Shown here: one piece after another, positions 61 to 12,409 of the stretch | How the letters are laid out: every line of letters begins with the position of its first letter | Position numbering within the stretch: the first letter of the stretch is position 1 | Assembly (NCBI GenBank): GCA_009837205.1 | Contig: VXTZ01000022.1 | Location: 1 to 64,000, forward strand | DNA: 64,000 nucleotides | Source: Candidatus Dadabacteria bacterium | GTDB lineage: Bacteria > Desulfobacterota_D > UBA1144 > Nemesobacterales > Nemesobacteraceae | Direction of reading: 5' to 3' | The notes under the pieces: generated by a model | Databases searched by the model: none | What the model saw: the letters and a program-made list of their open reading frames with translations, nothing else | Told to the model about the DNA's origin: nothing | Position numbers and translations under genes: made by a program

Positions 61-2820
61 TCAGATTGATAGCGGCGTTGTTTTCGGCAACATCTTTTTT
101 TTCTCCGAGAACCTTTTCCTTATATCAATTACGGCTTGGGTGATCTCTGCGGGCAGGGATTCGAGTTCCTCTCCCGTTTCCGCCCGCACCGCGTGCCAGA
201 GCGGTTCCATGGTTTCAGTCAGGGCAGGATGGCTTTCCATTATCTGCATGACCTGTTGGCTCCAGCCGGCCGCCGTGAGATTGATTAGGGATTCCGTCAG
301 ATCATGCGTGTTCCAGTATCGTTGGCCGACGGCGACGGAAAGCGCTCGGTCAAGTTTTTCAAGAGCTGCCATCCAGTTCCCGCAGCGGGCCAGTACATCG
401 GAGACCGTATGAAACGCGGCAGGTTCCTCCGGCATCAGTTCCGCCGCGCGGCAAGCGTAGCGTTTCGCTTCTTCCAGGCGCGCAACGTCGTCACTCCTGA
501 GAATCGCCTCCGCCCTGACGCGCCAGGCCTCGCCACACTCGGGGTCGAGTTCTGCTGCCTTTTTGCAACCTGATTCCGAGTTGTCATAACATCCCAGCAA
601 GTTGGCAATATTGCTCCTAGTGGCCAGCAGCTTAGCGAATTTCTGACGCGTATCTACCGGATCTTTCATATAAATATATTCTGAAAACCGGCCGTGGGAA
701 GTGATCCAGTCTTCAAACCGCCCCAGTTCCAAATATGCGGTGTCCAGAGCAAACAACGCTAGACTGGCACCGTAACGTAATGTTGCCGAGTCATCGGTAC
801 GAACATATTGAGTGAAGCTTTCCAAAATGGAGACAACTTCATCATAACGCTTTTGTGCGACAAGGACGTTTCCTTTCTCGGCGAGCGTCTTGATAAGCGC
901 CAGGCGCAACCATTCCGGATCGTCCGGGCGGACATATTGCGAAGCTTGTCGCCAGGTCGCGAGAGCTTCTTCGTGATGATCCTTTTCCGAGAAAAATTCG
1001 CCAAGAAGCCGAAGCCATTCAGTGGCTGCATAGCGTAGAGGGTGCGGGTCGTCCTGATTTACAAGCTCCGGAATTTTCCCTATAACGTTTGAGGCATCGC
1101 CAGAATTTTCCAGAGTGAAAAGAATTCCGGCCTCTGCAATCAGAGCTCCAAGTGCGTAAATCCGCAACTGTGCGGCATCATCGGGACTGACAGCCTCGGT
1201 TACATGCCTGAACGCATCGAGGGCATCCTCAAAATGCTTTCTTCCTCCTAAGGCGAAACCAAGAAGAAACCGAGCAAAAAGATTCTCCGGTTCTTGCCTG
1301 ATTGTCTCTCTGCACTCGGTTTCCGCCTCCACGAAGCGCTCAGACTGGAGTAGCTCGATGCCGCGACAGACCTTATCCGAAAAACAATCCAAATCTAACT
1401 GGTACTGCCGGGAGATATCCCGCACTATTTCGCCAAATGCTGACACGTTCGCGCCGTTCGTGCCGATAGAATTGATTATCAGGTTAAAGGCATTGTTCAG
1501 CCAGTCTTCGCGTTCCGTGAAACCACTGTCGTTCGCCGCATAGGGGATCAGGGCTCCAAGCAGTTCAGGCGCCTCTTCATCCTTAGAGACCCCGCTGCTT
1601 AACTTCTCAAGAGTCGCCAGATACATCGACCGCATCGGAACCGGGCCGAACAGATCGTTGAGGAAGTCTACCAGCAGCTTCAGGCGTCGATATCCCCGCC
1701 GCGAGAAACGCAGCAGGAAGTAGATGTTGTAGAACCGGTCGGCAACCTCGTACCGGATACGCTTTTCCCTCTCTGGCCGCGCTTCCCTGGCGTATCCCTT
1801 GTCCACCAGCTGCTTGAGCTGGGCGCTTGTGTGAGATGAGGAAAGCCTGGCCGCGGCGGATACTTCCTTCGCGAGCATGGGACTCCATCCCTCCGCAAGG
1901 CAATGAAACACCTTTCGGGACTGTGTCGGCAGCTCCTCAATGCGGGACTTGAAGTACGGAGTCTGTTCGTCGATTAGCTGTTCCAAGTCCTTGAACGCGG
2001 AACCGAGCGGCGACTCAACCAGAATTCCGTAGGTCAGCACCAGCAGCCGCGGGTTTCCTCCGGTCAGGCGGCGCATGGTCTCGATTCGCCCGCGTTCGCG
2101 GCTCAGTGTCTCGGTGACCTCAGTTTTGCCTTCACGTTCCGCGAGGGCTCGGAAGATCTGAAGATACTCTTCGCACCCAAGACCTTCTAGAAGAAAAACC
2201 CGGAAAAACTCGTAAAACGGTTCGCCGCGGTGCCGTATGGCCTCGAAGACGGCGTTTGCGGAACCGATCAGCAGTATCTCCGGATGTTCGATCAACGAAG
2301 CCCGCAAAGCGTGGACTTCGCGCTCATCACCCAGTTGTGAGAAAACGATGTCAAGATTTTCGACAAACAGAATCAGCCTCTTTCCGCTTCCTCGGGAGAA
2401 ATCAATAAGAACCGAGAGCGCGTACGCGGCAAGGCGCTGCGGATCCTTCTCGTCGGCCGAAAGCGCTTCTGCCTTGTCCTCCCATCGGGAATCCCGAGTG
2501 GCGCGGGTCAGGTGATGCAGGGCCGTAAGCCAGAAATCCGCCAGGTCGGTCACCTGATAGCTTTCCTCGTGAAACGCCACGGGCTGCCATGCTTCTGCAA
2601 GATCGGGCGTTTCGCGTACCGCTTGGAGAAACCGCAGACCGAGGGTGGTTTTGCCCATCCCCCGCGAACCGACAAGCAGCATGTGCTGGCACGGTCGGTC
2701 GGTTTTCTGCTCGTCCAGGAGGCGAAGCATCTCAGTGAGGGTCTCCTGACGGGCGACGAAGGAAGCCTTGAGTTCTTCCGGGGAGAGTTGGGCCGGGTTG
2801 TAGATACGTCTTTGCTTCAT
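61..2820 (-). CDS. AAA/STAND-like ATPase with TPR-type C-terminal half
   Basis: Large P-loop NTPase, 919 aa. Residues 51-59 carry a Walker A motif (GSRGMGKTT) and around residue 155 there is a Walker B-like strand (LILFVENLD). A winged-helix-like part follows, and the C-terminal half (from about residue 500) is helical with TPR-like repeats. This layout resembles STAND regulators or defence NTPases, where the repeats sense a ligand and the ATPase switches. The start at 2820 is chosen because its ATG overlaps the stop of the upstream ATPase gene (ATGA); an in-frame ATG 36 nt further up is less likely. The two genes form one operon that may continue past the left edge. No catalytic effector domain is visible. 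The function is unknown; defence is inferred only from the neighbourhood. Confidence 0.75.
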   Translation of the reverse strand: MKQRRIYNPAQLSPEELKASFVARQETLTEMLRLLDEQKTDRPCQHMLLVGSRGMGKTTLGLRFLQAVRETPDLAEAWQPVAFHEESYQVTDLADFWLTALHHLTRATRDSRWEDKAEALSADEKDPQRLAAYALSVLIDFSRGSGKRLILFVENLDIVFSQLGDEREVHALRASLIEHPEILLIGSANAVFEAIRHRGEPFYEFFRVFLLEGLGCEEYLQIFRALAEREGKTEVTETLSRERGRIETMRRLTGGNPRLLVLTYGILVESPLGSAFKDLEQLIDEQTPYFKSRIEELPTQSRKVFHCLAEGWSPMLAKEVSAAARLSSSHTSAQLKQLVDKGYAREARPEREKRIRYEVADRFYNIYFLLRFSRRGYRRLKLLVDFLNDLFGPVPMRSMYLATLEKLSSGVSKDEEAPELLGALIPYAANDSGFTEREDWLNNAFNLIINSIGTNGANVSAFGEIVRDISRQYQLDLDCFSDKVCRGIELLQSERFVEAETECRETIRQEPENLFARFLLGFALGGRKHFEDALDAFRHVTEAVSPDDAAQLRIYALGALIAEAGILFTLENSGDASNVIGKIPELVNQDDPHPLRYAATEWLRLLGEFFSEKDHHEEALATWRQASQYVRPDDPEWLRLALIKTLAEKGNVLVAQKRYDEVVSILESFTQYVRTDDSATLRYGASLALFALDTAYLELGRFEDWITSHGRFSEYIYMKDPVDTRQKFAKLLATRSNIANLLGCYDNSESGCKKAAELDPECGEAWRVRAEAILRSDDVARLEEAKRYACRAAELMPEEPAAFHTVSDVLARCGNWMAALEKLDRALSVAVGQRYWNTHDLTESLINLTAAGWSQQVMQIMESHPALTETMEPLWHAVRAETGEELESLPAEITQAVIDIRKRFSEKKKMLPKTTPLSI

Positions 2821-4028
2821 GGCTCCATCCCCCCTGACCGGTTTTTCCGCCACCACTCCCTAAGCAGGTTCGATCTGAAACACACATGGGAGCCGTCCCG
2901 CCGCACGTACCCGTCCGATTCCAGATTGCGAAGCGCCGAGAGAAGCTCGCTTTCGCCCTGCCGGGTCAGTTTCTCAATATCCGAGATGCGCGCACCGTCT
3001 CTCCGCCGACAGGCGTGATTGAGTATGTCGTGCGCCGCTTCCTGCTCGTCTGCGTCAAGCATGATTTCCAAGCGGGCTGCGTAATGGTCAAGATGAGGCG
3101 TGCCGCCAGGTCCCGTAAGCCTTTCCGTGAAGCATCGCTCTATTGCACTTTCGGAAACGCGCGAGGGGTCCCCATTGCAGGATTGGCGAAGGGTCGAAAA
3201 AAACAGTTGCAGGTGATAGGGAACCGGATCCGAGAGGAGGTCGAGAATTTGTGAGACGCTACGTTCGTCCATGCGGAAGCCATAACTGTCTCCAAGCTCC
3301 TCCAGAAACTTAACTGCGACATCCCGGTCCCATGAATCCAGCTGGAAAGGGGCCAGATCGTTTATTAATCCCGAAAGAGCAAAGCGTCTGAGAACGCCTT
3401 CAAGCCCGATGGACCCGCCGATCAGTGTGCACACCTTCCCGCGCATCTGCGGAGACTGGCGCCAGCGCCGGAACCCGGACAGCAGCAACTCGACATCATG
3501 TTTTCCTTCGAGGGTTTTCAGCATGCGCGAGACGAGTATCGGAAACTCGTCGAGGATGATCAGGAGGCTGCGACCGGGATCCGGCAGACTCTCAAGACGT
3601 TCAAGAAGCTGATCCGCTGTACGTTTCCAGTCCCGGCCGATCGCCCTTTTGAGTTCAATGCGGACTTTTTCGATGCTGACGGAAACTTCGGAAAAGGAAA
3701 ATGTGCTCTTGAGCGTGTCTACTACGGTCTTTGCGAACGGAATTTTTTCGATGCCTCGGCGGTACTCCGGGTTCACCGCCAGAGCGGCGACAATTGCCGC
3801 CAAGCAATCCGCCGAATCTTCGGCACCTTCAACATCCACATAAAAGACATCCCAGTTTTCCCGAGGTTCGCGACGAAGTTCCAACATGAGGCTGGTCTTC
3901 CCGACCCGTCGCGGGGCAAGCATCAGAACATGCTCTCCCTGCTCCAGTTTTTCCCATAGCAGTTCCAGTTCGGATTCTCGTCCGTAGAGGTCTTCGCCGA
4001 TTACCGCCTGTCCTGTAATGTTTTGCAT
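2817..4028 (-). CDS. ATPase_2-like P-loop ATPase
   Basis: A 403-aa ATPase of the archaeal-type ATPase_2/AAA family. Walker A is APRRVGKTS at residues 38-46 and Walker B is LLIILDEFP at 155-163; a winged-helix segment lies in the last 80 residues (SELLSALRNLESDGYVRR). It is the first gene of a two-ATPase operon and overlaps the next gene by ATGA, so the products are probably made in matched amounts and may work together. The ATG at 4028 has a GGGAG ribosome site 8 nt upstream and a good promoter behind it. These ATPases are common in archaea and sporadic in bacteria, which suggests transfer. The substrate is unknown. Confidence 0.75.
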   Translation of the reverse strand: MQNITGQAVIGEDLYGRESELELLWEKLEQGEHVLMLAPRRVGKTSLMLELRREPRENWDVFYVDVEGAEDSADCLAAIVAALAVNPEYRRGIEKIPFAKTVVDTLKSTFSFSEVSVSIEKVRIELKRAIGRDWKRTADQLLERLESLPDPGRSLLIILDEFPILVSRMLKTLEGKHDVELLLSGFRRWRQSPQMRGKVCTLIGGSIGLEGVLRRFALSGLINDLAPFQLDSWDRDVAVKFLEELGDSYGFRMDERSVSQILDLLSDPVPYHLQLFFSTLRQSCNGDPSRVSESAIERCFTERLTGPGGTPHLDHYAARLEIMLDADEQEAAHDILNHACRRRDGARISDIEKLTRQGESELLSALRNLESDGYVRRDGSHVCFRSNLLREWWRKNRSGGMEP

Positions 4029-4165: not shown

Positions 4166-4260
4166 CAAGGCAATCATTCAGGTCCAGAAAACCCGACAGA
4201 CGCACAGTCAGTTTTTCAGCACAGCGGAAAACGGCGAAACACTATACACCCAAAGCGTAG
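4166..4260 (-). pseudogene. Frameshifted 3' remnant of a second copy of the 201-aa island gene
   Basis: Translated on the minus strand this stretch gives RFGCIVFRRFP and, after a frameshift, AEKLTVRLSGFLDLND. The intact gene at 5847-6452 ends RFGRIVFRRLP ... AEKRAKRLSRFLNSKD. About 23 nt are missing between the two blocks relative to the intact gene, which breaks the frame. Homology stops near 4260, so only the C-terminal part of a diverged paralogue remains. In the intact operon an MBL hydrolase gene follows at this point; here the two-ATPase operon follows instead. Confidence 0.6.
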
Positions 4261-4407
4261 TCACCATCACTCATCGCCTTTCGCCCCAGGACATGTCCGC
4301 CACGCACTTTCCTAGCTTCGCTCGCTCATCAGAAGCTCCTTCTCCCGCAGCCTCCCAGCCACTTTTTTTTCTTCTCGCGCGCCCTTTTCCTTATTATATA
4401 TAAGAGC

Positions 4408-4575
4408 TCAGACTCCCCTTTCCTCAAGGCCCGGGGGAAGTTCTCCGTAATAGGGAGAGTCCTCCTCGTACATCTCAAGGACTTTATCCTTCGGCATGTC
4501 GCACATATCTTCCGTGAAACCGAACATCCTGCATATGTGGCGAAGCTCCTCCTCCCTCCCCGGAAGCGGGTCCAT
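4408..4575 (-). repeat. Direct repeat copy 1: detached 3' end of the nitroreductase gene
   Basis: This 168-bp block matches 7495-7662, the last 55 codons plus stop of the nitroreductase gene, at 163 of 168 positions. The five differences are all third-base and synonymous (Gly, Gly, Glu, Lys and Val codons), so the encoded peptide (MDPLPG...LEERGV) is identical. The block runs exactly from an in-frame ATG to the TGA. No ribosome site precedes it, so it is probably a displaced gene end left by insertion of the 4576-7494 segment rather than an expressed gene, although a small gene cannot be excluded. Confidence 0.85.
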
Positions 4576-4755
4576 GTTATGACGGAACAAGCATTTTTCC
4601 TGATTAGGTTGTTTCTAGTTTTATTCACAGCATCGTGCACAGTTGCTAAAGCTGGCAAGAGGGGTGAAACGGACATGAAAGATTTTCTTTGAAGTAAAAG
4701 TCATGGGTTGGTGCGTCAGATAAGATTTTTAGACAAAATTAATCTGTCGGACTTA

Positions 4756-5850
4756 TTATCGTCTACTCCAAACACCCTTGAGATGAGTGGCGTTACCGAA
4801 CAATTCAACTGACCAATCAGGTTCTGAGTTTTTAAGGCAGCGACGCAATCGCACATGACCCTGTTTTGGGTAGGCTTTGCGAATTCCCCATCCATATCGA
4901 CGAATTGTTTTTTCGACCGAATTATTGCGTTTGGTTGAAGCAGTTGAAGTTAATCGTGCGGAAGAATAGGCCTTAGTTGTTCTTTCCCGTATACGTTTAA
5001 CATCTTCCTTGCTCGGGAGAGGCTTACGACCTCGACTGAATGGTGTGAGTATGGCAAATGGAGTCGGTATGAGCAAGTTTTCCCAAATATCAGCAAATTC
5101 TCCAGTTTTCGAACCGTGATGTGCAACCTTGTACACGGAAGATTTTGTATTTTTTATGGATTGAGAGTCGTTGGCAATAGCTGACCACCCTCCTCCAGGC
5201 ATCTCCTCAAGATCCGCACCCAGCAATATTGCGTCGTCACCCAAATCAATTAAAAGAGCCACTGAAATATCATTTGGTCGCATGTCTCCCATTCTTGTTC
5301 TGGTCGTGCCTAATTCCGGTATTTTCTCAGCCAAGCGTGACAAAAAACTTGCAATGCGTTCATTTGACGGCGAAAGTGCAAATACCTTCACATTCTTCTC
5401 GGTTTTTCGAATCAGAGTGTCTGTCAGCAAAAATTTTGGTTTCTTTCCTCGTTGCTCTAAAATCTCCAGAATTTTTATAATTTCTTGCGTTGATCTCGCG
5501 CTAGGGGCGGGATCAGTTTCTGCGTAAACCGCGGCAAACCCGAGGAACTCCTCTCCACGAAGAGCCATTGCGCAGCAGAAATCTGCGAACTCGCAACAAT
5601 CAACCACTTCGGATAGGCCACCGATGTGATCATCATGCCAATGGGTAGCTATAACATGGGAAACTTGTTTAGCGAAATCAACCCCTATTTTGTTCAAGTA
5701 GGCGACAGCCGAACTCTGGGATTGACTGTTCTCCTCTAGGCAAGAATCAACGATAATCCATTCACCGTCGCCGATGTGAACAACAATTGACTCTCCGTAG
5801 CCGGGACCGATCAATGAAACTTCTATGACATCGGAAGGAGGAGCTTTCAA
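4756..5850 (-). CDS. MBL-fold hydrolase, ComEC/Rec2-like
   Basis: Metallo-beta-lactamase fold protein, 364 aa. The metal-binding signature THWHDDHIGG is at residues 69-78, a later strand carries LLGADLEE, and KVAHHGSKTGE supplies a downstream histidine, as in the hydrolase domain of ComEC-type proteins. There is no membrane segment, so it is a free soluble hydrolase. It is the last gene of a three-gene operon and its ATG overlaps the stop of the gene before it (ATGA). Family members cut phosphodiester or ester bonds; a nuclease or nucleotide hydrolase is plausible here. The C-terminal 90 residues are basic and serine-rich, which would suit nucleic-acid binding. The role in the island is unknown. 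Confidence 0.8.
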   Translation of the reverse strand: MKAPPSDVIEVSLIGPGYGESIVVHIGDGEWIIVDSCLEENSQSQSSAVAYLNKIGVDFAKQVSHVIATHWHDDHIGGLSEVVDCCEFADFCCAMALRGEEFLGFAAVYAETDPAPSARSTQEIIKILEILEQRGKKPKFLLTDTLIRKTEKNVKVFALSPSNERIASFLSRLAEKIPELGTTRTRMGDMRPNDISVALLIDLGDDAILLGADLEEMPGGGWSAIANDSQSIKNTKSSVYKVAHHGSKTGEFADIWENLLIPTPFAILTPFSRGRKPLPSKEDVKRIRERTTKAYSSARLTSTASTKRNNSVEKTIRRYGWGIRKAYPKQGHVRLRRCLKNSEPDWSVELFGNATHLKGVWSRR

Positions 5851-6452
5851 TCTTTTGAATTGAGGAAGCGGGATAGACGCTTCGCTCGTTTTTCAGCACG
5901 GTGAAGAGTGGAAGATGTCCAACCTGGTAAACGGCGGAACACAATACGTCCAAAGCGTTGTTGTCGCCCATTGGGACGTATTGAGCGACCCACTGTCAAA
6001 TAGAACACAGCACCTATTTTGAGCAATTCCTGATCATCGTCTGAAATGTCCTCAATCGGAAGTTCCGCCATCTCGCTTGGGTAGTTTTCCTCGTTTGTCA
6101 GGTCGCGTAATCGGGCAGTGAAATTTTCATCTCCCACTGTTTCGACGATACCTTCCCAATCCTGAAGTATCCTGTCTTGAGGTACTTCCGGTGGCGATTT
6201 TGGATTTTTAATCTCTGGAAAAGCAAAAGGAGCATATACATTTAACTCCGTATTCTTGTCGATTTTCTGCGGCAAAAGTCCTACCCTGTTTGAGTGCTTG
6301 TTGAATGTTGCCAGAAAAGTTTCCTCGACAGCGTCTCTGAAAACATGAATTTCGGTAGGGAACTCACCTATAACATTATCACGTCGAGACATATTATTTG
6401 AGTTAAAACCTGGTATATCTGTCCGTATAAAAGCCGCTGTGGCTATAGTCAT
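5847..6452 (-). CDS. Unrecognised 201-aa island protein
   Basis: Not recognised. The ATG at 6452 overlaps the upstream stop codon (ATGA) and the 3' end overlaps the MBL gene in the same way, so the three proteins are tightly co-translated. A longer reading from 6524 exists but the overlap argues against it. The protein is soluble, with an acidic middle (DISDDDQELL) and a basic C-terminus (RFGRIVFRRLP, RAEKRAKRLSRF). A decayed copy of this C-terminus lies at 4166-4260, so the family has been present twice in this locus. The basic tail could contact nucleic acid or the partner hydrolase; that is a guess. Confidence 0.6.
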   Translation of the reverse strand: MTIATAAFIRTDIPGFNSNNMSRRDNVIGEFPTEIHVFRDAVEETFLATFNKHSNRVGLLPQKIDKNTELNVYAPFAFPEIKNPKSPPEVPQDRILQDWEGIVETVGDENFTARLRDLTNEENYPSEMAELPIEDISDDDQELLKIGAVFYLTVGRSIRPNGRQQRFGRIVFRRLPGWTSSTLHRAEKRAKRLSRFLNSKD

Positions 6453-7171
6453 GTTCGGTATTCCTCCGTCAGCGCCATAATTTGATCCACTATTATTGCT
6501 GCCCGCTTCATTGAAATCTCCCAATTGGCTTCTAAAGCTTCAACAGCCAATGATGCATTCTGAACTGATTTTTCATTATCCATCAATTGAAATTGATTAC
6601 TCACTCCAACGAAAATACCCGTATTACCTTCAATTTTAATAGATGGCTCAACTTGGGCCTGCACGGAACTATCATACTCACCTACCTGCTGCAAATTTTT
6701 CTGGAGCATTGTAATCGAAAGCATGCCTCCTCGTTCGTATATGGGTGCGTCGTAAGATTTTTGTATTTCCTTTCCCCACTCACCCCAAGCATCTTTCGGC
6801 GCTAATCGACTGCCTACACGATCCCTGACTTCAAAGTCGCCAGTATCAAAATGAATATTTCGGTTGATACCCATAGCTACCACCGGTGTGTGGGGCAGAT
6901 ACTTCCCGAAACATGAAATTACAAGATCTTTAATATGCTCGGGGTGGTCACCAACACCGGTTACTAAAAAATGGTCAAGTCTAACCTTAAGCTCAAATGT
7001 ATCAACCCCGAAAGCACATTCTTCTTTATTTTGTAACAACATTACCGTTTTCTCGGCTTCTTTTTCTCCTATCATCCCGTGCCGAGCAAACCATGCTGGT
7101 TGAAAAATTCTCGGATTGAAAGAACCAAGCAATACAATGCTTGCGTTATCAAATTCTGGCTTGATACGCAT
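6449..7171 (-). CDS. Unrecognised 240-aa island protein
   Basis: First gene of the three-gene MBL operon. I do not recognise the family. Near the N-terminus is a striking stretch, LLGSFNPRIFQPAWFARHGM, followed by mixed alpha/beta sequence and a C-terminal amphipathic part. There is no signal peptide, membrane segment or known catalytic motif. The ATG at 7171 has an AAGG about 10 nt upstream and a promoter at 7222-7251. The last codons overlap the next gene (ATGA). The strict coupling suggests that all three products act together. Relatedness to sporadically distributed families of about 250 aa should be tested. Confidence 0.65.
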   Translation of the reverse strand: MRIKPEFDNASIVLLGSFNPRIFQPAWFARHGMIGEKEAEKTVMLLQNKEECAFGVDTFELKVRLDHFLVTGVGDHPEHIKDLVISCFGKYLPHTPVVAMGINRNIHFDTGDFEVRDRVGSRLAPKDAWGEWGKEIQKSYDAPIYERGGMLSITMLQKNLQQVGEYDSSVQAQVEPSIKIEGNTGIFVGVSNQFQLMDNEKSVQNASLAVEALEANWEISMKRAAIIVDQIMALTEEYRT

Positions 7172-7494
7172 AATTCGTATACCTTAGCTGTTTGTAAGTC
7201 AACATACCTCGCCCGACAACCACTATAACACCAAATAGGTTTTTTGGACAATCAGAACTTTCCATTCCATTTCTAATTTCATCAACTAATATTGATCTCA
7301 ACGCTACGCTCTTTCAAACATAGAGTGTTTATCCAAACGCTTCCAGTGCTGTTCTGCTTACGAGCAACTCTGCGAGAGTATCTCAAGTCCACAGAACCGA
7401 GGATGAAATCAGAAACCGCTCTATGGCTCCACAAAAACTTACCGTTGAACAATTTTTCCTGAAAGCAGCCGAAAACCGAAATTTTTTCCTTTTT
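7172..7494. other. Intergenic region between island operon and nitroreductase 3' end
   Basis: These 323 bases hold the promoter of the three-gene operon (7222-7251) and otherwise AT-rich sequence without a convincing gene, RNA or terminator. The right edge meets the 168-bp direct repeat at the nitroreductase stop codon. No integrase or transposase remnant is visible. Confidence 0.5.
7222..7251 (-). promoter_or_regulatory. Promoter of the three-gene MBL operon
   Basis: On the minus strand TTGTCC (7246-7251) and TATAGT (7222-7227) are 18 nt apart. The start would be near 7215, about 44 nt before the ATG at 7171. Confidence 0.45.
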
Positions 7495-7662
7495 TCAGAC
7501 TCCCCTTTCCTCAAGACCCGGGGGAAGCTCCCCGTAATAGGGAGAGTCCTCCTCGTACATCTCAAGAACCTTATCCTTCGGCATGTCGCACATATCTTCC
7601 GTGAAACCGAACATCCTGCATATGTGGCGAAGCTCCTCCTCCCTCCCCGGAAGCGGGTCCAT
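7495..7662 (-). repeat. Direct repeat copy 2: in-place 3' end of the nitroreductase gene
   Basis: Partner of the block at 4408-4575, offset 3087 bp. It begins at the stop codon of the nitroreductase gene and ends at an internal Met codon 55 codons before the stop. The segment between the copies is the three-gene island. Confidence 0.85.
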
Positions 7663-8376
7663 TGGTTGTATGAGTTTTTCCTCCTCAAGCTCCTTCCGCA
7701 CGTCCTGGTCCTCGGCAAGCGGAGTTCCGTACTCGTTTGAGTGATAAAGCCTGTCGAACCTCTTCCTCGGCCTCTGGCCGGGATCCTCAGCCGCGTATCC
7801 CACTGTCATGAGCCAGATGGGAACTATGTTCTCGGGAGTCCCGAGAACCTTCGGGAACTCGGCCGGCTTTCTCCCCGTGGCGATAAGGCAGCACCCGAGG
7901 CCCAGGTCAGTGGCCGCGAGCATGGCGTTCGCTATGGCCTGGCCCGCCTCGACCCTCAGAAGATCCTCCGCCCTGTCCTTGGGAAAGCTCATGAGCCTCG
8001 GATAGGTGTTCTCGGTAAGTATCTTGTAGGTCCAGCCGTGAGCGGCGGTTATGGCCCTCGCGGGAAACAGCACCTGGAAGGTCTGTATGAGCTCCTTGTA
8101 CCAGGCGTCCAGGTTTATCAGCCACGCAACGATAATCGGGGCCTGGCGCAGGTGGATCTCGTTAAACGCGGATCCGCATTCAACTATCTTCTCGAATTTC
8201 TCCGGGGGATAGGTCCTTTTGTCTATGACTATCGCCTCGGTCGAGTTGCAGTTGCCCTGGCAGGAGCAGTACCGCGCCGCCTGGAGCATCTTCTGTATCT
8301 TCCAGTCCTCAACCTCTTTCCAGGGCTTGTAGAACCTAAAGCTTCTCCTGGTGCCCATTGCTTCAAAAACTTCCAT
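7495..8376 (-). CDS. Nitroreductase family FMN protein
   Basis: A 293-aa nitroreductase-fold flavoprotein: N-terminal RRSFRFYKPW (the FMN phosphate-binding RRSxRxF motif) and a later helix with AGQAIANAMLAATDLGLGCC typical of the family. Such enzymes use NAD(P)H to reduce nitro groups, quinones or enones, or act as dehalogenases. The roughly 60-residue C-terminal extension (from DQDVRKELEEE on) is longer than the usual domain. A strong AAGGAGGG site precedes the ATG. It follows the SDR gene by 56 nt in the same direction, so the two are probably one operon. Its last 55 codons are duplicated 3.1 kb away at the far edge of the island. Confidence 0.85.
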   Translation of the reverse strand: MEVFEAMGTRRSFRFYKPWKEVEDWKIQKMLQAARYCSCQGNCNSTEAIVIDKRTYPPEKFEKIVECGSAFNEIHLRQAPIIVAWLINLDAWYKELIQTFQVLFPARAITAAHGWTYKILTENTYPRLMSFPKDRAEDLLRVEAGQAIANAMLAATDLGLGCCLIATGRKPAEFPKVLGTPENIVPIWLMTVGYAAEDPGQRPRKRFDRLYHSNEYGTPLAEDQDVRKELEEEKLIQPMDPLPGREEELRHICRMFGFTEDMCDMPKDKVLEMYEEDSPYYGELPPGLEERGV

Positions 8377-9386: not shown

Positions 9387-9809
9387 ATGATTGAATACGA
9401 CAAATTTCAAAATTCCCTGAAACGCCTTGAGGAACAGTACGGAAATTACCGTGCCATAGAGAACTCTGACCTGGATTCGATAATGCGGGAAGCTGTGGCC
9501 GAGTCGGTCATACACAGGTTTGAGGTCTGTTACGACTGCCTATGGAAGGTGCTGAGACGCCACCTCGCAGAGGAGCTCGGCGTTCCAGATGCCCCAAACA
9601 GCCCGAAACCTGTTTTCAGACTGGCCTTTGAAAACAACCTTCTCCCCTCACCGATCGAAAAATGGCTTGATTACGCAAACAGCCGCATCAATACAAGCCA
9701 TGACTATGATGAGGGAAAGGCCAGAAGATGCCTTGGAATCATAAGCGGCTTTATTGACGATGCCACAGGTCTTTACGAAACAATGAGCGGAGAAACATGG
9801 AAACAGTAG
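9387..9809 (+). CDS. HEPN-like nucleotidyltransferase substrate-binding protein (HI0074 family)
   Basis: A 140-aa all-helical protein of the HI0074/HEPN type. MREAVAESVIHRFEVCYDCLW is the conserved helix of the family, followed by SRINTSHDYDEGKA near 110. In HEPN/MNT modules this protein is the toxin (often an RNase) or the partner of the nucleotidyltransferase that follows. The next gene starts 13 nt before this one ends, a coupled pair. An Rx4-6H catalytic motif typical of HEPN RNases is only loosely matched, so it may be the binding subunit rather than an active nuclease. Confidence 0.8.
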   Translation: MIEYDKFQNSLKRLEEQYGNYRAIENSDLDSIMREAVAESVIHRFEVCYDCLWKVLRRHLAEELGVPDAPNSPKPVFRLAFENNLLPSPIEKWLDYANSRINTSHDYDEGKARRCLGIISGFIDDATGLYETMSGETWKQ

Positions 9810-10114
9810 AAGCTATTGATATCTCTTCTGAGCAGCGCGGCGTTCTTCTTGCGCTGCTTAAAAAGCATCTTCCGAATACCCGCGTCTGGGTATACGGTTC
9901 CCGCGCGAGGTTTGCCGCGAAAAAGAGTTCGGATCTCGACATGGTGGTATTTGCCGGAAGCGGACAGAGAAGACAGGTCGGCGATCTTCGGGAAGCTCTT
10001 GAACAGAGCGATCTTCCGTTTCGGGTGGACCTGTTCGTGTGGGATGACATGCCGGAGAGATTCCGGGAGAAAATTGAAGGTGACCACGTAACCCTTGTTT
10101 CCCCTGACCACTAA
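9797..10114 (+). CDS. MNT-type minimal nucleotidyltransferase
   Basis: A 105-aa minimal nucleotidyltransferase: WVYGSRARFAAKKSSDLDMV gives the GSxxR and DxD metal-binding motif (about residues 34-52), and RVDLFVWDD supplies the third acidic strand. In HEPN/MNT toxin-antitoxin systems this enzyme AMPylates the HEPN toxin and silences it. It overlaps the HEPN gene and ends about 95 nt before the nitrilase. The pair lies exactly between two copies of the nitrilase promoter, so it is probably a cassette inserted there. Confidence 0.85.
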   Translation: METVEAIDISSEQRGVLLALLKKHLPNTRVWVYGSRARFAAKKSSDLDMVVFAGSGQRRQVGDLREALEQSDLPFRVDLFVWDDMPERFREKIEGDHVTLVSPDH

Positions 10115-11361: not shown

Positions 11362-11958
11362 TTACGACTTAGCAAACGAAATCAGGGAATCATAGATACC
11401 AGAGTCAGCCTCACGCAGTGCCGCAATATAGCGTTCGCGGACATCTTCAGACGCAGTGAGGTCGGCACCACCGCCCCATGTGAGTTTTTCACCACCATAT
11501 TTGGCAACTATTACATCGGCAAGCAAGCGCGCGTGTCGGCCGTTGCCGTTCGGAAAAAGGTGAATTTTCACTAACCGGTGATGAAAAATAACGGCCAGTT
11601 CAGTAACACCGTAGGTATTGTGTTCCAGCCAATAAGCGGCATCGTCCAGCAACTTGCGAAATTCGGTCTGGATGAGGGAATAGTTGACGCCGATGTTTTT
11701 GTCGGATTTTCGGTACTGACCTGCCCATTTCCAGACACGACCGAACATGCGCTTATGAAGGTTCAGGATAAATTTCTCCGAAAAAATATTCTGTTTCGAT
11801 GCCAAAACAGATTTCCGCATTACCCATCTCCGGGCTTCAAGAATATTTTCCCGCTCGAAACGGTCCAGATCTTCACGCATTAATATGGTGGGAACGAGAT
11901 GTTCCTTCTCTTCCTCGCTAAGCGGGGTCTGGCCCTCTGTATAACGATACTGAACCAT
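11362..11958 (-). CDS. Mobile mystery protein B, Fic-domain protein
   Basis: Fic/DOC-fold protein of 198 aa with the core motif HLFPNGNGRHARLLADV (HxFxxGNGR), used by Fic enzymes to transfer AMP or another phosphate group onto proteins. Sequence and partner fit the mobile mystery protein B family (TIGR02613 type), found with protein A and often near mobile DNA. The ATG at 11958 begins 1 nt after the stop of protein A; a longer reading from 12000 is unlikely. Toxin or modifier activity is inferred from the fold. The (S/T)xxxE(G/N) inhibitory helix of self-regulated Fic proteins was not identified. Confidence 0.85.
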   Translation of the reverse strand: MVQYRYTEGQTPLSEEEKEHLVPTILMREDLDRFERENILEARRWVMRKSVLASKQNIFSEKFILNLHKRMFGRVWKWAGQYRKSDKNIGVNYSLIQTEFRKLLDDAAYWLEHNTYGVTELAVIFHHRLVKIHLFPNGNGRHARLLADVIVAKYGGEKLTWGGGADLTASEDVRERYIAALREADSGIYDSLISFAKS

Positions 11959-11959
11959 T

Positions 11960-12409
11960 TCAGTCCCACAGACTGATGGCAGGGTTGCGCACCAACTCAT
12001 CAGCGATTTGGGCGGTTTTCTCCTGCCTGTCGCCTACATCCTGCGCTTCAAGCATCATGCTGTGGTCCACAGGATCAACGATATCACGAGCCTTTCTGAG
12101 CGCCTGCTTGCGCACGATGTTCCGCAAGGAGCCATCATTTGGAACAAAAACATAAACGAGCCTGCAATCCAATGCTTCAGCCGCCTTGCGAAGCGACCTA
12201 AGTGTAATCGCATCATTGATCTCGTTTTTCTCCAAACGAGCGGCGGATTGCTGTGTGATGCCTATACGTTCCGCCATCTGACGAACGCTCATGCCAAGCG
12301 AGGTGCGGACAGCACGAATCCAACCGCCAGAGGGACGGTCGCAAACATTCACTCTGGAAAGGTGGTCATCCAGCGTCTGCAATTGCATATACTTAAATTT
12401 GTTTGTCAT
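11960..12409 (-). CDS. Mobile mystery protein A, HTH regulator
   Basis: A 149-aa protein with a Cro/CI-type helix-turn-helix at about 32-90 (GMSVRQMAERIGITQQSAAR) and a tail typical of mobile mystery protein A (TIGR02612 type: RLVYVFVPNDGSL). It is the first gene of the A-B pair and probably represses its own promoter: a perfect 12-bp inverted repeat brackets the promoter upstream. The layout, an HTH gene followed by a Fic gene, looks like a toxin-antitoxin unit. It lies next to tRNA-Gln, a usual integration spot. Confidence 0.85.
   Translation of the reverse strand: MTNKFKYMQLQTLDDHLSRVNVCDRPSGGWIRAVRTSLGMSVRQMAERIGITQQSAARLEKNEINDAITLRSLRKAAEALDCRLVYVFVPNDGSLRNIVRKQALRKARDIVDPVDHSMMLEAQDVGDRQEKTAQIADELVRNPAISLWD

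Follow-up and report, generated by a model that had tools for sequence, protein, structure and literature searches.

A mobile three-gene operon with a ComEC-like hydrolase

A Candidatus Dadabacteria bacterium (assembly GCA_009837205.1) carries an operon of g1, g2 and a gene for a ComEC-like MBL-fold hydrolase. It is a real, conserved and mobile three-gene system that was absent from the defence catalogues searched. On the best reading of our analysis, it would work like the MBL-nuclease defence systems Canu, Hachiman and AVAST type 1 without being a member of any of them, and it would do so free of a protease. The operon lies in the window, the whole 64,000-nucleotide stretch that was analysed (contig VXTZ01000022.1, positions 1 to 64,000 of the forward strand).

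The preliminary description of the window had listed three minus-strand ORFs, and their coordinates, lengths and strand were all borne out (Table 1). It had also given ATGA as the overlap at both joints. This was correct for g1/g2; the g2/MBL joint is likewise a 4-nt overlap but reads TTGA, because the start codon of the MBL gene is TTG. The two small proteins had been called unrecognised, and neither g1 nor g2 matched any model in Pfam, NCBIfam or PADLOC. The ComEC-like assignment of the third protein was confirmed by a ComEC-type match and intact metal ligands, and the proposed inserted segment by a duplicated nitroreductase 3' end (168 bp, 97% identity) and by two sister genomes, G009 and G012, in which the same flanks occur without the 3,087 bp. 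The description had further called the hydrolase a likely phosphodiesterase. Its likeness to ComEC and its intact ligands made a phosphodiesterase or nuclease role reasonable.

The gene joints in 74 relatives were equally tight. A 4-nt overlap was possible at each joint in 25 of them, and a start codon lay at most 30 nt away in a further 48 (g1/g2) and 40 (g2/MBL). The operon is real, beyond chance. Upstream of g1 lies a gap of 323 bp, in which two sigma-70-like matches, both weak, were found; the region as a whole gave 9 such matches, versus 4.8 ± 2.1 in shuffled sequences.

Table 1. Features of the operon and its insertion site in the window.
Feature	Position	Strand	Basis
g1, 240 aa, first gene	6449..7171	-	ORF list; AlphaFold model; 77-row alignment
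g2, 201 aa, middle gene	5847..6452	-	ORF list; alignment
MBL-fold hydrolase, 364 aa, last gene, ComEC-like	4756..5850	-	Lactamase_B, PADLOC and Foldseek matches
g1/g2 start/stop overlap, ATGA	6449..6452	-	
g2/MBL start/stop overlap, TTGA	5847..5850	-	
Displaced copy of nitroreductase 3' end, 168 bp, outer insert boundary	4408..4575	-	Repeat; continues into G009-like flank
Same 168 bp, 3' end of intact nitroreductase gene (7495-8376)	7495..7662	-	
New DNA of insert, 2,919 bp, carries operon	4576..7494		Empty site in G009 and G012
AAA/STAND-like ATPase pair, 403 aa and 931 aa (with TPR), separate neighbouring cassette	61..4028	-	
Relic like the C-terminal end of a g2 gene	4203..4262	-	Repeat D2; beside ATPase cassette

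Conservation and distribution of the operon

When 84,980 species genomes were searched with a g1 profile, 169 relatives came to light, and 80 loci were kept. A single-sequence g1 scan of the genome contigs had found nothing, whereas the profile scan succeeded. In 74 of the 80 loci, g2 and the MBL gene followed directly behind g1 in the same order; the exceptions were mostly at contig edges or had broken genes. Together with two plasmids and two IMG/VR contigs, these loci confirmed the co-occurrence of the three families in other genomes, for which the preliminary description had proposed to look. Its refuting case, that the two small proteins would lack homologues beside MBL genes elsewhere, was contradicted outright by the 74 conserved loci.

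The hosts of this strictly co-conserved set belonged to about 20 phyla. They included Pseudomonadota, Acidobacteriota, Myxococcota, Latescibacterota, Gemmatimonadota, Chloroflexota, Actinomycetota, Verrucomicrobiota, Nitrospirota, Planctomycetota and others, as well as one archaeon (Thermoplasmata). One plasmid was from Adhaeribacter; the other was a conjugative Pantoea plasmid, on which the set adjoined tyrosine recombinases. Within the phylum of the window, g1 or a remote relative was found in 5 of 58 genomes; when 387 genomes were sampled more widely, the number was 10. In the genus, G002 held a second, different copy, and more copies were present in G015 (JADFKM01, Candidatus Dadabacteria bacterium) and G022. 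Searches of further phyla around G058 and G060 gave nothing, because few genomes are available in these phyla.

The three proteins diverged together. Pairwise distances of g1, g2 and MBL correlated with r of 0.84-0.86, versus a permuted maximum of 0.30. Phyla were intermixed on the tree, with the two Dadabacteria standing apart, although more than one phylum change on a tree is not in itself proof of transfer, since bins can be contaminated. From the correlated distances and the mixed phyla, the three genes seem to move together as one unit. In a Nitrospinae genome (L064, 7312-11806), the MBL gene looked split by an insertion with a transposase-like ORF, the 3' part lying about 3.4 kb further on.

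The operon sits in a cargo hotspot

In G009 and G012, the nitroreductase gene is followed directly by the sequence that is found here past the second 168-bp copy. This empty-site junction defined the insert as 3,087 bp, made up of the new DNA and the 168-bp duplicate. The new DNA has a GC content of about 43-47%, below that of the flanks.

In Dadabacteria, this site is a hotspot for cargo, bounded by a nitroreductase gene and a cytochrome c gene that point towards each other. The ATPase pair occupies it in the window and in G002, G009 and G012, the latter three without the MBL operon there. The cargo in G003, G010 and G011 is one protein of 406-419 aa, and in G013 a 679-aa relative of that protein with an 890-aa partner. 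Nothing of this kind was found at the site in G005, and G006-G008 align across the junction as G005 does. The flank duplications also differed: they are 168 bp long here and 384 bp in G009, and in G002 86 bp from the cytochrome gene are duplicated. These unequal lengths make one fixed att site unlikely. An integrase was recognised neither in the insert nor in other cassettes at the hotspot; on these two grounds, an integrase-borne island was rejected.

Where relatives carry the ATPase cassette, duplicated stretches of either neighbour gene, 384 bp or 86 bp long, flank it. The end of the ATPase gene and position 1 of the contig are 60 bp apart; at this place relatives carry a repeated nitroreductase/cytochrome tail. 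This repeat probably caused the assembly break at the contig start.

Relics resembling the end of g2 were present at the hotspot. Besides the one in the window, they were detected downstream of nitroreductase in G001, G003 and G010 (tblastn, 2e-4 to 5e-4), genomes that lack the operon at the hotspot. The relics resemble the last 34 codons of g2 and sit in a leader common to other cassettes. Their presence suggests that operons of the g1-g2-MBL kind have come and gone here.

The MBL protein is a predicted ComEC-like nuclease

The MBL protein matched Lactamase_B (3e-9) and, in PADLOC, LmuA (6e-12) and RTasMBL (8e-9). With the Avs1a model it scored 22 bits, versus a curated cut-off of 420. The AlphaFold model was confident (pLDDT 92.2), with no residue below 50 and 13 below 70 in the whole protein, and its closest Foldseek match was the MBL domain of ComEC (PDB 9ic4, E 6e-12). 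Both marks of a ComEC-like hydrolase were present, the HxHxDH...D...HHGS motif and the ComEC-type fold. In the 64-row family alignment, H70, D74, H75, D213 and H245 were invariant, and H72 and H244 nearly so.

The protein shares motifs, fold, HHGS and metal ligands with the MBL domain of ComEC/Rec2. It differs in being free-standing, without a channel, and is longer than the ComEC domain in two places, by about 43 residues between the motif blocks and by about 42 at the C-terminal end. The insert (within 88-193) was modelled as helical, mostly with confidence. We infer nuclease activity from the kinship of the protein with ComEC and with the MBL nucleases found in Canu, HamMAB and AVAST-1; the MBL protein is the likely nuclease effector.

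g1 and g2 match no family in Pfam, NCBIfam or PADLOC

The AlphaFold model of g1 (pLDDT 93.8) consists of two similar alpha/beta halves, judged from the order of their elements, which is an internal duplication. A fold search of the PDB gave no trustworthy relative, the best matches having a TM of at most about 0.3; those to AdoMet decarboxylase and to lipid-binding folds were of low TM and were not trusted. The best match in a viral structure library was A0A515MGR4 (E 3e-9, TM 0.53-0.61), an entry without a name. Profiles of g1 and g2 found no convincing match among PDB sequences.

Residues G16, N19, I22, F23, P25, W27, D82, G101, N103 and P125 were invariant in the 77-row g1 alignment. The g1 of the window has S191 and Q193, where the family has N in 76 and H in 73 of the 77 rows; given these substitutions, the window copy may be altered or have lost its function. 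The two residues are encoded at about 6590-6601 on the minus strand. In g2, the N-terminal half is variable and the C-terminal domain (about residues 95-190) is conserved (alignment A8).

Remote g1 relatives precede different last genes

Remote relatives of g1 (profile E about 1e-6 to 1e-12; hhalign 97.8%) head similar three-gene sets in which the last gene differs. It encodes a PIN nuclease in L191, a clan AA aspartic protease in L058, and unknown proteins of 136 aa in L059, 161 aa in L032, 376 aa in L195 and 146 aa in L165. The L165 set, on a cyanobacterial plasmid, sits between hsdR and hsdS of a type I restriction locus. Middle genes were compared in four sets (L032, L058, L059 and L165), and none matched the g2 of the MBL class, indicating that gene 2 changes with gene 3. 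This is as expected if gene 2 is an effector-specific partner. From these sets, g1 gives the impression of a shared controller whose effectors can be exchanged.

A single g1 relative was located directly upstream of giant genes on other cyanobacterial plasmids (L166, L168, L170 and L171). The giant genes are CARDB/adhesin-like or colicin-type and do not form a three-gene set. Therefore g1 need not be a phage sensor, and its role may be broader.

The TIGR04255 sets have a comparable layout, in which a gene for a protein of about 250 aa is accompanied by a middle gene and by a third one that is small and variable; across Dadabacteria, the third genes are HEPN-like, DUF7689 and others. Identity of g1 with TIGR04255 was rejected, with no NCBIfam match (cut-off 30 bits) and an hhalign probability of 0.7%. 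By sequence, the two kinds of set are alike in architecture only. A TIGR04255 operon also occurs in the same genome as the window (G000:C31:20514-21224; L148, L196). No literature on the g1-g2-MBL set or on TIGR04255 was found in a search whose scope left most subscription papers and bioRxiv outside.

Comparison with known MBL systems

Canu (KaeCanABC) and the MBL nucleases of HamMAB and AVAST-1 have been described (PMC12799240). Like Canu, a caspase-nuclease system, the present operon has three genes, of which the last encodes a ComEC-like MBL (pro-)nuclease and the first two would form the controller. In Canu, however, the first gene encodes a caspase-family protease with an Ig-like domain, and neither was recognised in g1 or g2. 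No caspase was found there by Pfam, NCBIfam or PADLOC, nor among the PDB matches listed for the g1 model, which is confident yet unlike any PDB entry. The Canu MBL carries two disordered gating insertions, whereas the insert here is predicted to be ordered and helical.

Hachiman (HamMAB) and AVAST type 1 (Avs1a/b/c) have MBLs of the same broad ComEC-like group, but the operon lacks their trypsin-like protease, helicase or STAND partner. AVAST type 1 calls for an Avs1a score above 420 bits, the trypsin-like Avs1b and the STAND protein Avs1c; the MBL here reached 22 bits. An assignment to AVAST-1 by way of the neighbouring ATPases was rejected, since the ATPase cassette and the MBL operon each occur without the other in relatives. 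Lamassu LmuA (MBL type) and the DRT-associated RTasMBL gave the best PADLOC matches of the MBL. Unlike Lamassu, the operon has no LmuB SMC-like ATPase, its partners being g1 and g2; unlike DRT with an RT-associated MBL, no reverse transcriptase was present among the scanned proteins of the operon and its neighbours. The operon thus fell outside Canu, AVAST type 1, Lamassu and DRT/RTasMBL.

Proposed function

We give an even chance to the reading that the three genes form a conflict module, complete in itself and spread by horizontal transfer. Its effector would be the MBL protein, a ComEC-like metal-dependent nuclease kept inactive in the cell. The likely role of g2 would be that of a putative adaptor or inhibitor specific to this effector, linking it to g1, a likely, still putative sensor and controller. 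A signal related to an intruder (phage or plasmid), sensed by g1, would change the hold of g1 and g2 on the MBL. The freed MBL would then degrade DNA, and the intruder would be blocked or the cell killed. Control is put down to partner binding and not proteolysis, because no protease was recognised and no disordered gates were present.

Several observations bear on this conflict module. The mobility and patchy occurrence of the operon are in keeping with such a system, as are the interchangeable last genes, among them nucleases and a protease, and a defence function, though putative, is likely on the present analysis. The set within a type I restriction locus and the weak similarity of the MBL to LmuA, the RT-associated MBL and Avs1a also speak for it. 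Against it count the g1 relatives that precede adhesin-like or colicin-type genes, the S191/Q193 residues of the window g1, and several genomes in which the operon stands alone among housekeeping genes. The preliminary description had likened the operon to a compact defence or conflict system. Mobility, patchiness and changing last genes agreed with this, but a preference for a neighbourhood of defence genes was not shown. PADLOC families numbered 194 in 180 neighbour ORFs versus 71 in 87 random-control ORFs, no clear excess in a crude comparison that counts families and not genes.

A three-component toxin-antitoxin or addiction module is a rather unlikely alternative. The MBL would be the toxin, and g2, with g1, the antitoxin and regulator; the module would persist by stabilising its element or region, without phage sensing. 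In its favour are the compact layout with overlapping genes, copies that stand alone among housekeeping genes, carriage on plasmids, the PIN last gene of a remote relative and the joint replacement of genes 2 and 3. Against it, the sharing of g1 by sets with different last genes suits a sensor better than an antitoxin, and the three genes hardly ever occur apart. It is quite improbable that the operon serves metabolism or regulation as a cellular nucleotide or oligonucleotide phosphodiesterase, with an MBL that is not a genome-attacking nuclease. MBL folds do include many phosphodiesterases and esterases (several were among the Foldseek matches), and some copies lie among housekeeping genes, but patchy distribution, mixing across phyla, mobile context and changing last genes argue against this.

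The MBL could also be a gated pro-nuclease that is switched on, in the manner of Canu, HamMAB and AVAST-1, by a protease that went unseen here and is encoded outside the operon. Its weak profile similarity to the MBLs of LmuA, RTasMBL and Avs1a and the residues beyond ComEC between the motif blocks are compatible with gating. We nevertheless consider this very improbable, with no protease recognised in the operon and an insert that is helical in a mostly confident model, unlike the disordered gates described before (PMC12799240). Also very improbable, to our judgement, is a DNA-uptake or plasmid-processing factor acting like the ComEC MBL domain as foreign DNA enters. That domain is the closest solved structure, but the operon has no membrane channel part, and a competence link in the neighbours was limited to a few DprA-type genes; their family, DNA_processg_A, was seen in 3 of 109 neighbours and is common in housekeeping roles as well.

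A broader reading of g1 is tentative and somewhat doubtful. g1 would represent an undescribed superfamily of controllers or sensors heading a class of three-gene immune modules, in which matched pairs of adaptor and effector are exchanged while the controller stays the same, the effectors including an MBL DNase, a PIN RNase and an aspartic protease. If true, this would be a new immune logic with a modularity comparable to that of CBASS or STAND systems. The constant first gene and the changing last genes offer a handle for finding further effectors. If the conflict module functions as proposed, a widespread mobile nuclease system, spread over about 20 phyla, plasmids and viral-collection contigs, is missing from the catalogues used, and a ComEC-like MBL nuclease would be controlled without the partner protease on which the described MBL defence systems rely.

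Two further gene pairs were noted in the window. A nucleotidyltransferase substrate-binding protein lies beside a nucleotidyltransferase-like ORF at 9387-10114, forming a pair of the MNT/HEPN type. At 11362-12409, a Fic protein is accompanied by an HTH partner.
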